Program-made: the position numbers and the translations under genes
Source: an uncultured Oscillospiraceae bacterium
GTDB lineage: Bacteria > Bacillota > Clostridia > Oscillospirales > Oscillospiraceae
Direction of reading: 5' to 3'
DNA length: 28,237 bases
NCBI GenBank assembly: GCA_934589155.1
Contig: CAKTNP010000027.1
Location: forward strand, 1 to 28,237
The notes under the pieces: model-generated
Database searches by the model: none
What the model was told of the DNA's origin: nothing
What the model saw: only the letters and a program-made list of their open reading frames with translations
Part shown: positions 9,922-17,703 of the stretch, piece after piece
How the letters are laid out: every line of letters begins with the position of its first letter
Position numbering within the stretch: the first letter of the stretch is position 1

Positions 9922-10052
9922 CAACCTATGAAGAGTGCGCGAGAGACAAGCTCGTTGACCGCACAGCAACCTGCCCCCGGGTAAGGTGCTAACGCTTGCA
10001 CGATGGGTCCCTTTGAAATTTGGCACCCGTCGTGATCGATGGGTGCTTTTGT
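9922..10052 (+). promoter_or_regulatory. SAM-I-clan riboswitch, compact form without P4
   Basis: P1 pairs ACCTAT (9924-9929) with ATGGGT (10003-10008), followed by the AAGAG junction. P2 is GTGCG (9935-9939) with CGCAC (9960-9964), carrying a kink-turn pattern (GA at 9941, GTTGA at 9954). The core strings AGCAACC (9965-9971) and AAGGTGCTAA match SAM-I RNAs. The P2-loop pseudoknot is kept by changed bases: CAAG (9947-9950) with CTTG (9995-9998), in place of CTGG/CCAG in Bacillus. No P4 hairpin is present. CGATGGGT at 10001-10008 is repeated at 10037-10044, so ACCCGTCG (10025-10032) can pair with either. Binding of SAM should lock P1, allow the terminator and turn the genes off. Confidence 0.85.
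10023..10052 (+). terminator. Riboswitch-controlled terminator
   Basis: Stem GCACCCGTCG (10023-10032) pairs with CGATGGGTGC (10037-10046), loop TGAT, followed by TTTTGT. Its 5' arm competes with the antiterminator that uses 10001-10008. Confidence 0.85.
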
Positions 10053-16655: not shown

Positions 16656-16684
16656 TTGATATTTGCGGACGGATGTGGTATGAT
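16656..16684 (+). promoter_or_regulatory. Promoter of the rod-shaped leader RNA
   Basis: TTGATA (16656-16661), a 17-nt spacer and TATGAT (16679-16684), with TG upstream of the -10. The predicted start at about 16691 coincides with the first base of a 14-bp closing stem. Confidence 0.75.
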
Positions 16685-16690
16685 AACCGT

Positions 16691-16880
16691 GCCAAACTAA
16701 CTGAATAGATAAGATGGAGCCTATGGGGATAGTCTACTCTTTTTGCCTATACGCATTGAATTTGATAAAAATGCAAATTCTGCTGTGTATAGGCAAGGCT
16801 CTTGCTATATCAGTTAGTTTGGCGACTATCGGAGTTTGCGTTTTTTGTGCGTCTACTTCGGTAGGCGCACTTTTTATTTT
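16691..16880 (+). ncRNA. Rod-shaped structured leader RNA of unknown class
   Basis: The RNA opens with GCCAAACTAACTGA (16691-16704), which pairs perfectly with 16810-16823. Inside, GAGCC (16717-16721) pairs with GGCTC (16797-16801), TTGCCTATAC (16743-16752) with GTATAGGCAA (16787-16796), and GAATTTG (16758-16764) with CAAATTC (16774-16780). A one-sided 21-nt bulge (16722-16742) holds GATAGTC (16728-16734), complementary to GACTATC (16824-16830) right after the closing stem, so a pseudoknot is possible. A terminator ends it at 16847-16880, just before the next ribosome site. I do not recognise the class. It could be a riboswitch-like attenuator or an independent small RNA. Confidence 0.7.
16847..16880 (+). 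terminator. Terminator of the structured leader
   Basis: Stem GTGCGTCTAC (16847-16856) pairs with GTAGGCGCAC (16861-16870) across a TTCG tetraloop, then TTTTTATTTT. The gene's GGAGG begins 3 nt later. GTCTAC also occurs in the leader bulge (16732-16737), so the 3' arm has an alternative partner. Confidence 0.9.
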
Positions 16881-16894
16881 ATGGAGGAATGGCT

Positions 16895-17500
16895 ATGGAA
16901 GAAAAAATCATTATCAAAGGCGAAAAACAACGATTTACCCTATTCTATTATGTAATTGGACTCGTCGGTATGGTGTGCATTTTAATACCATTTATTGACC
17001 AAATGATTGACCCCGGTTATCACAACAAATCGCTCATGTATAATGTAATACATTGCAGTGACCTTCACACATTTTTGTGGCCGATAGGTATTGCTTTTAT
17101 TGCTGTTGCAGCGATTTTCCCAATGGTATATTCCAGAGTTGAATTGACAATCACTAACAAAAGAGTATTTGGAACGGCAGCGTTCGGAAAGCGGGTTGAT
17201 TTGCCGCTGGATTCTGTATCTGCGGTTGGAAGTGGTGTGTTTCATAGCATAACGATAACATCCGCCTCCGGCGCAATTAAATTTGGGATGCTTAGCAATC
17301 GTGACGAACTGTACAAGGCAATCAGTAAACTTCTTATTGATCGGCAGGATTCAAAGCAGCCAATCACGCAAACAACAATTAAGCCAGAAATTCCCCAGAG
17401 CAATGCCGAAGAACTGAAAAAGTACAAAGATTTGCTTGACAGCGGCGTTATCTCTCAAGAAGAATTTGATGCAAAGAAAAAGCAGTTGCTGGGATTGTAA
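16895..17500 (+). CDS. Membrane protein with bacterial PH-like and SHOCT domains
   Basis: A 201-residue protein. Two transmembrane helices (about residues 14-36 and 58-80) are followed by a bacterial PH-like domain (about 82-150, RVELTITNKRVFGTAAFGKRV onward) and a C-terminal SHOCT motif (ELKKYKDLLDSGVISQEEFDAKKKQLL). Such proteins are widespread and uncharacterised; SHOCT domains are thought to mediate oligomerisation. Start 16895 has GGAGG (16883-16887) 7 nt upstream; ATG 16889 is too close. The gene is visibly more AT-rich than its neighbours, suggesting transfer. Its expression depends on read-through of the structured leader. The next small gene begins 2 nt after its stop. Confidence 0.85.
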   Translation: MEEKIIIKGEKQRFTLFYYVIGLVGMVCILIPFIDQMIDPGYHNKSLMYNVIHCSDLHTFLWPIGIAFIAVAAIFPMVYSRVELTITNKRVFGTAAFGKRVDLPLDSVSAVGSGVFHSITITSASGAIKFGMLSNRDELYKAISKLLIDRQDSKQPITQTTIKPEIPQSNAEELKKYKDLLDSGVISQEEFDAKKKQLLGL

Positions 17501-17502
17501 AT

Positions 17503-17703
17503 ATGATTCGGCGCAGTACGGAATTTCTGCATTCTTTCTTCTTTGGCAGTGATACATATTCCGCAGACGCAATTGACAGGAAAGTGGCTGCTGACATTAT
17601 TGACTTCTGCCTAGAAAATAGGATGATTGAAGTTACTAGGAACAATAGAAAACGACTCTATCGTATTTTGCCAGAGGGCAAAAAAGTGATTGACCGAAAA
17701 TAG
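17503..17703 (+). CDS. Small winged-helix-like protein
   Basis: A 66-residue basic protein whose second half (AADIIDFCLENRMIEVTRNNRKRLYRILPEGKKVI) looks like a short winged-helix or DUF-type domain with a helix and two strands. The ATG lies 2 nt after the stop of the PH/SHOCT gene with no separate strong ribosome site, so it is probably translated by coupling. It shares the AT-rich composition of that gene. The protein is too short and divergent to name; it could also be the remnant of a longer gene. Confidence 0.5.
   Translation: MIRRSTEFLHSFFFGSDTYSADAIDRKVAADIIDFCLENRMIEVTRNNRKRLYRILPEGKKVIDRK

Follow-up and report, generated by a model that had tools for sequence, protein, structure and literature searches.

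The leader of a SHOCT-domain gene in an uncultured Oscillospiraceae bacterium probably attenuates transcription in cis, as a two-state switch that represents a new class of RNA. The architecture of this two-state leader is well supported by sequence comparison, and on this evidence it is a predicted orphan riboswitch-like attenuator, belonging to a putative new class of two-state attenuator leaders that would work like terminator-controlling riboswitches or protein-dependent attenuators. A fuller reading, to which we give slightly less than an even chance, is that of a new orphan riboswitch class concentrated in one order of mostly uncultured gut Clostridia and present also in one phage-deposited record. 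In it the tail would mimic an arm of the apical hairpin and compete with that arm for its partner, and a signal at the apex or side loop would pick either antiterminator or terminator. The family was traced from a single unannotated leader, and the stretches scanned against Rfam 15 gave no match for it.

Architecture of the leader and proposed mechanism

The leader lies on contig CAKTNP010000027.1, of which the whole stretch of 28,237 nucleotides was analysed (here, the window). Its parts, with P1 to P4 denoting the helices of the rod, are the following.

16656..16684, + strand: sigma-A-like promoter, read from the sequence; its register matches the upstream profile of 174 elements
16656-16661, + strand: -35 box TTGATA, with a 17-nt spacer to the -10 box
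16676-16684, + strand: extended -10 box TGgTATGAT, read from the sequence
G16691, + strand: +1, the first base of P1
16691..16704, + strand: P1 5' arm, a perfect 14-bp stem, covarying in 71 aligned sequences
16716..16722, + strand: P2 5' arm in the predicted fold (partner 16796-16802)
16723..16743, + strand: one-sided bulge of 21 nt in the predicted fold, containing GATAGTC (16728-16734)
16744..16755, + strand: P3 5' arm in the predicted fold (partner 16784-16795)
16758..16764, + strand: P4 5' arm of the apical hairpin, from the predicted fold and P4 covariation (partner 16774-16780)
16767..16781, + strand: switch strand AAAAATGCAAATTCT, able to pair either over its 3' part with the P4 5' arm or over its full length with the tail
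16784..16795, + strand: P3 3' arm in the predicted fold
16796..16802, + strand: P2 3' arm in the predicted fold
16810..16823, + strand: P1 3' arm, from sequence, predicted fold and covariation
16826..16835, + strand: antiterminator 5' strand CUAUCGGAGU, in the minimum free energy (MFE) fold and by covariation (partner 16855-16864)
16831..16845, + strand: tail GGAGUUUGCGUUUUU, partner of the switch strand 16767-16781
16847..16879, + strand: intrinsic terminator GUGCGUCUAC-UUCG-GUAGGCGCAC plus U tract (hairpin 16847-16870), from sequence and covariation of the terminator helix
16855-16864, + strand: antiterminator 3' strand ACUUCGGUAG, inside the terminator (loop and 3' arm)
16883..16887, + strand: ribosome site GGAGG, read from the sequence
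16895..17500, + strand: downstream gene, its protein having a SHOCT domain and, toward the N-terminus, hydrophobic stretches (listed ORF start 16889)

The original prediction had described a promoter whose RNA start coincides with the 5'-most base of a perfect 14-bp stem, and the window sequence confirms this. The further inner helices that it proposed (P2, P3 and P4) and the one-sided bulge with GATAGTC are found in the predicted fold, and the UUCG terminator followed by the ribosome site of the SHOCT gene is present as described. A gene start at 16895 suits the ribosome site better than the listed ORF start at 16889. Directly 3' of the SHOCT gene there is a small ORF (17482-17703) without a Pfam match.

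Positions 16691-16894 fold with an MFE of -79.3 kcal/mol (z -7.05), and none of 200 shuffled sequences was equally stable. The reverse strand gives a similar fold score (z -6.90), which a palindromic rod would be expected to do; the orientation is fixed by the promoter, the terminator and the gene.

As comparison of the elements supports, the promoter sets +1 at the start of P1 and the rod P1-P2-P3-P4 follows. The switch strand, as the 3' side of the apical hairpin, can pair either locally with the P4 5' arm or with the tail behind P1. The switch:tail helix excludes both P4 and the antiterminator, and the antiterminator excludes the terminator; because of these mutual exclusions, the two best-paired sets are P4 with the antiterminator and the switch:tail helix with the terminator. 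With the former, the polymerase would read into the gene (predicted ON state), and with the latter transcription would stop (predicted OFF state), a direction that we infer from the overlap of the helices by the established logic of attenuation. A third combination, P4 plus terminator with the tail left unpaired, is allowed too and would likewise stop transcription; thus, the switch:tail helix would most likely act by keeping the tail from the antiterminator. The choice between the states would be made by a signal acting on the rod, the apical hairpin or the side loop.

Comparison with known RNA families

Membership of an Rfam family was taken as a covariance-model score at or above the gathering threshold, and by this measure the window, 18 loci and 20 variant loci contained no element belonging to a known Rfam 15 family. 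In the window the only families found were tRNA and SAM, both of them elsewhere, with no match at the element, in agreement with the earlier description of it as an unrecognised RNA; the 18 loci gave only tmRNA, tRNA and one L21 leader. When Rfam 15 was run in E-value mode on the window element and the 20 variant loci, everything besides tRNA remained below the gathering score. A T-box or SAM riboswitch was rejected, as neither family model matches at the element. The SAM riboswitch aptamer of the window, at 9923-10045 and over the Rfam threshold, is an ordinary known leader.

Distribution and sampling of the family

A distant DNA search with the element across phages returned one match, covering 23 percent of the query, in MT835503.1 (locus L001, 338-560). 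This record, which comes from human faeces, was deposited under the name 'Bacteriophage sp.', is flagged as unverified and carries no annotation. Its leader shares the tail and has a similar terminator, differs in the sequence of the closing stem, and precedes the gene for an EcoRI-type adenine methylase (PF13651, E 1.6e-132). The shared 16-base tail, written as CGGAGTTTGCGTTTTTN{0,4}GCG, served as search pattern for the genome collection and was found at 118 loci at least. Among 80 matches listed by title, nearly all were Clostridia/Oscillospiraceae assemblies, mostly from gut and rumen. Each of 34 genomes reached from the loci has between 1 and 4 copies of the 16-base tail and none of a reversed control pattern. 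Searches of viral contigs with two exact patterns of the 5' half of the element and with the tail pattern, and a plasmid search, gave nothing useful; the SHOCT protein matched 76 loci in viral contigs, most of them through the C-terminal SHOCT region alone, and these were left unused.

A covariance model (R1) was built from 71 sequences. At E 0.01 it detected the element in 6 of the 81 genomes searched from one family; at E 0.001 it did so in 74 of the 295 searched from one order, with as many as 6 members in a genome. Of 398 genomes sampled across the phylum at E 1e-4, 1 had a member, and this was the query centre itself. These counts are lower bounds, and the phylum run is the least sensitive, because few candidates (34, 9 and 6 per genome in the family, order and phylum runs, respectively) were scored under strict filters.

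Three loci with the core sequence and, by eye, no rod (L124, L159 and L182) were excluded from all later counts. The 117 matches, window included, were reduced to 112 by removal of L090, L097, L125, L167 and L192 (contig ends or low stem score), and to 111 elements by removal of L112, whose 5' end is cut. For the 81 loci L196-L276 a heuristic gave 76 elements in 73 loci, of which L220 and the minus-strand match of L253 were judged false; with 4 further elements lost to short ends, 181 elements remained, and 175 after removal of identical ones. Alignment A1 holds 71 of the 112 elements and A3 103 of the 175; the protein alignments hold 96 of 99 downstream proteins (A2), 57 of 65 (A5) and, as background, a random draw of 96 of 363 ORFs (A4).

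The model also recovered a short class that lacks the side hairpin and reaches the end of P1 after some 100-130 nt; among the 175 distinct elements, 152 have at least 130 nt and 23 are shorter. A side hairpin like GGGATANTATACCC followed by T's, with TATANT on the reverse strand, is present in 101 of the 152 long elements, as judged with a loose pattern, and the window bulge at 16723-16743 occupies the place of this long-class hairpin, GGGATANTATACCC-TTTTT. The sequence AATA at the inner end of P1 (window 16704-16707) is conserved in both length classes: [AC]ATA lies within nucleotides 9-24 in 145 of 175 elements, as against a mean of 76 and a maximum of 92 in 200 shuffles, and it is possible that AATA is a recognition site. 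Two tandem pairs of elements on the same strand were observed, 387 bases apart in L143 and 317 bases apart in L252; such tandem copies may give sharper control.

Covariation of the rod and of the switch:tail helix

The outer and apical helices of the rod are preserved by compensatory changes. In the 71 sequences aligned out of 112 elements, P1 and P4 together had a covariation score of 0.291, compared with 0.119 +- 0.006 after shuffling (matched by 0 of 500 shuffles), and 147 cells were changed on both sides, compared with 48.9 in shuffles; when the partner was shifted by one column the score fell to 0.07. The outermost pair of P4 was unpaired in 7 of 71 cells. The sequences of P2 and P3 vary between elements and the pairing of each arm with its own partner is kept: over the 111 elements, the arms paired on average at -17.8 kcal/mol with their own partner and -10.6 with a swapped one for P2, and at -17.6 versus -6.7 kcal/mol for P3.

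As judged from covariation, the conserved pseudoknot of the family is that of the apical loop with the tail 3' of the closing stem. The apical strand, with the consensus AAAAAYGCAAAUUCC, pairs with the tail GGAGUUUGCGUUUUU behind that stem; in the window, 16767-16781 and 16831-16845 form 15 of 15 pairs, the terminal one being U-G and others wobbles too. RNAalifold on A1 alone returned, unprompted, a 14-bp helix of apical strand and tail as the whole consensus structure. In the first 111 elements the switch strand paired with the consensus tail in 1630 of 1665 cells, with all 15 positions paired in 83 elements, and 80 of the 115 apical departures from consensus could still pair. The tail of these elements was set by the search pattern, and therefore it is mainly the later variants that test its covariation. 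Among the 175 distinct elements, own switch:tail pairs averaged -18.04 kcal/mol versus -16.88 for permuted ones (0 of 2000 permutations), and in the 50 elements with altered tails the values were -17.28 and -14.23 +- 0.32 kcal/mol (0 of 2000). For every one of these 50 tails, no stretch of the rod pairs better than the A-rich apical strand (-10.9 to -21.8 kcal/mol), and in L197, L207, L260, L270, L274 and L276 a one-base deletion or insertion on one side is matched on the other. A harder test, in which partners were exchanged with the closest element whose tail differs, gives weaker evidence, the own partner being better in 63 and worse in 31 of 157 pairs (p 0.001).

A different pseudoknot had been proposed originally, between GATAGTC in the bulge and GACTATC after the closing stem. 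The complementarity is present in the window; across the 152 long relatives the pairing of GACWATC with the bulge is at chance level (own -3.14 versus permuted -3.12 kcal/mol, with 790 of 2000 permutations equal or better), and this pseudoknot was rejected. Of the two signs of conservation that had been sought in homologues, compensatory changes are thus found in the helices, with none above chance for GATAGTC/GACTATC. Instead of pairing with the bulge, GACTATC would form part of an antiterminator with the terminator hairpin.

Antiterminator and terminator

The MFE fold of the window pairs CUAUCGGAGU (16826-16835) with ACUUCGGUAG (16855-16864), and the antiterminator thus joins the start of the tail and the five preceding bases to the loop and 3' arm of the terminator. 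Own antiterminator pairs averaged -11.83 kcal/mol versus -9.68 for permuted ones in the 175 distinct elements, and -11.71 versus -9.47 in the 50 elements with altered tails (0 of 2000 permutations in both cases). In the 103 aligned sequences the covariation score was 0.237, compared with 0.160 +- 0.007 in shuffles (0 of 500), and the count of doubly changed pairs was matched by 22 of 500 shuffles; the two outer pairs are frequently not formed (in 32 of 103 and in 25 of 102 cells). The base W (window 16827) is paired as A-T in 67 elements, as T-A in 50 and as T-G in 19, and is unpaired in 17 (153 scorable, 22 of 175 not scorable).

The terminator helix itself had a covariation score of 0.360, compared with 0.173. 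When terminators were swapped with the most similar element of different sequence, the own one was better in 106 and worse in 13 of 148 pairs, and therefore the signal does not come from lineage alone. Moreover, in L198, L199, L240, L249 and L253 the terminators are divergent, with no plain UUCG loop, and as judged by eye each can still form 10-11 bp with the tail region of its own element. Antiterminator and terminator share columns 40, 41, 46 and 52-54 of A3, and both scores beat all 500 shuffles and all slides. The element therefore has what defines an attenuator, two covarying and mutually exclusive helices with a common strand. In crude energies of the 3' module the antiterminator is better than the terminator in only 37 of 175 elements; thus, the ON state is probably reached with the help of a factor or through the order or kinetics of folding.

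Promoters and downstream genes

Upstream of the 174 elements profiled, TTG stands at -35 to -33, TG at -15/-14 and a TATAAT-like box at -12 to -7, and in 89 percent the +1 base is G. Of the 174, 131 have a TAnnWT box and 106 an extended -10, and 43 have no recognisable TAnnWT box at the expected place. An ORF of at least 50 codons led by a Shine-Dalgarno sequence begins within 160 nt downstream in 129 of 167 elements, compared with 28 of 165 in the upstream mirror test; the other 38 of the 167 have no such gene within this distance.

The 96 downstream proteins include 15 with BspA-type LRR_5 repeats, 5 with SHOCT, 5 with Zn_Ribbon_1, 3 that are MazE/AbrB-like and 1 EcoRI methylase, and the 57 of the variant set include 6 with LRR_5, 5 with Zn_Ribbon_1 and 1 EcoRI methylase; NCBIfam gave no match on 6 proteins. 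A fixed tie to SHOCT genes was rejected, as SHOCT accounts for only 5 of the 96. The genomic copies in L168, L173 and L276 also precede EcoRI-type methylase genes. In 20 such genomes the number of stretches matching BspA-type repeats ranges from 5 to 166 per genome, and with repeats so common a control with random ORFs matters. For 96 random ORFs, drawn from 363 of the same loci, the 25 families listed were metabolic and housekeeping and included none of the downstream-gene families; since the first 13 of them have two members each, each downstream family occurs at most once among the 96. Lipoprotein-like starts were found, by crude motifs, in 24 of 81 downstream ORFs of at least 100 codons versus 55 of 727 in the background (odds ratio 5.1, p 6e-8), and signal-peptide-like starts, also by crude motifs, in 40 of 81 versus 186 of 727. 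Members of the class often stand before genes of gut Clostridia whose products are secreted, membrane-bound or otherwise accessory.

Discussion

The expectation of a structured, unclassified leader with promoter and attenuator is borne out by the compensatory changes, the promoter profile and the preserved terminator helix, and the question is what would operate the switch. The leader has the two parts by which a riboswitch is recognised, a conserved structured domain and an overlapping expression platform. It is quite possible, as one form of the explanation that we prefer, that a small molecule is sensed: the rod with its side hairpin or internal loop would be the aptamer, and the ligand would free or lock the apical hairpin. 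Conserved stretches outside the variable helices, the complete terminator/antiterminator platform and the several copies in many genomes are in line with this, whereas the varied downstream genes indicate no metabolite, and the short class lacks the side hairpin altogether. That the apical hairpin or the side loop is instead recognised by an RNA-binding protein, acting as antiterminator or terminator much as in the BglG/LicT or ANTAR systems, is conceivable, if rather doubtful. One element common to unrelated surface genes would fit the regulon of a protein, and the apical sequence is well conserved though free of the search pattern; however, at about 100 nt or more the element is longer than the protein-antitermination sites known to us. 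A leader-peptide attenuator was also considered and rejected: the frame GTG CGN YTR CTT CGG occurs in part of the elements and, by eye, the others stop after two codons.

Two further explanations were weighed. The element could be a stand-alone small RNA that ends at the terminator, with tails and apical loops of different copies pairing in trans and cross-regulating. It has its own promoter profile and a covarying terminator, and tails and loops are so alike between copies that permuted pairs reach -16.88 kcal/mol, making pairing across copies possible; yet a ribosome site and an ORF stand close behind it in 129 of 167 cases and the antiterminator helix covaries, which the plain terminator of a small RNA would not need, and we regard this explanation as improbable. 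A scattered miniature transposon or palindromic repeat, the case that had been named as refuting the original prediction, is very improbable indeed and already contradicted. Inverted ends, several copies in many genomes and the two tandem pairs might suggest it, but the copies are alike in P2 and P3 in structure and not in sequence, lie mostly oriented toward a gene, and keep the promoter register and the terminator helix; copies alike in sequence and free of that register, as in a MITE or REP repeat, were not what was found. The compensatory changes in homologues, together with promoter profile and terminator helix, thus disfavour the transposon.

If the fuller reading, that of a new orphan riboswitch class, is true, LRR surface proteins, lipoproteins, SHOCT and zinc-ribbon proteins and EcoRI-type methylases would be under one intracellular signal, and cross-talk in trans would be possible between copies with a common tail and loop. 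Through the element, surface genes and accessory genes in uncultured gut bacteria would be recognisable as responding to that signal, and naming it would give access to a regulon in bacteria whose gene control has hardly been studied. Since covariation already resolves the expression platform, mutants and double mutants can be designed at once.

A literature search, over titles and the beginnings of abstracts, found no RNA of this kind named. A survey of the human microbiome from 2021 (Fremin and Bhatt, PMC8040213) gives 3161 unnamed intergenic candidate structured RNAs; no such switch is described in its matching passages, and parts of the family may already be among these candidates, without a function.

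With regard to known systems, the proposed attenuator resembles three groups of leaders. BglG/LicT RAT and ANTAR hairpins are protein-dependent attenuators and share with the element the choice between terminator and antiterminator upstream of several genes, but the element has about 100 nt or more and a long-range pseudoknot. The processive antitermination RNAs put and EAR share a long structured leader before a terminator; unlike them, the element has no Rfam match in the scanned stretches, and its antiterminator would be a defined helix with the terminator itself. Transcription-terminating riboswitches have in common with it the promoter, the structured RNA, the mutually exclusive antiterminator and terminator and the ribosome site behind. 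In contrast to known riboswitches, the element has no Rfam match in the stretches scanned and would have an orphan aptamer, and it would differ from the transcription-terminating ones in its switching strand, which is an arm of the apical hairpin for which the tail behind the closing stem competes.
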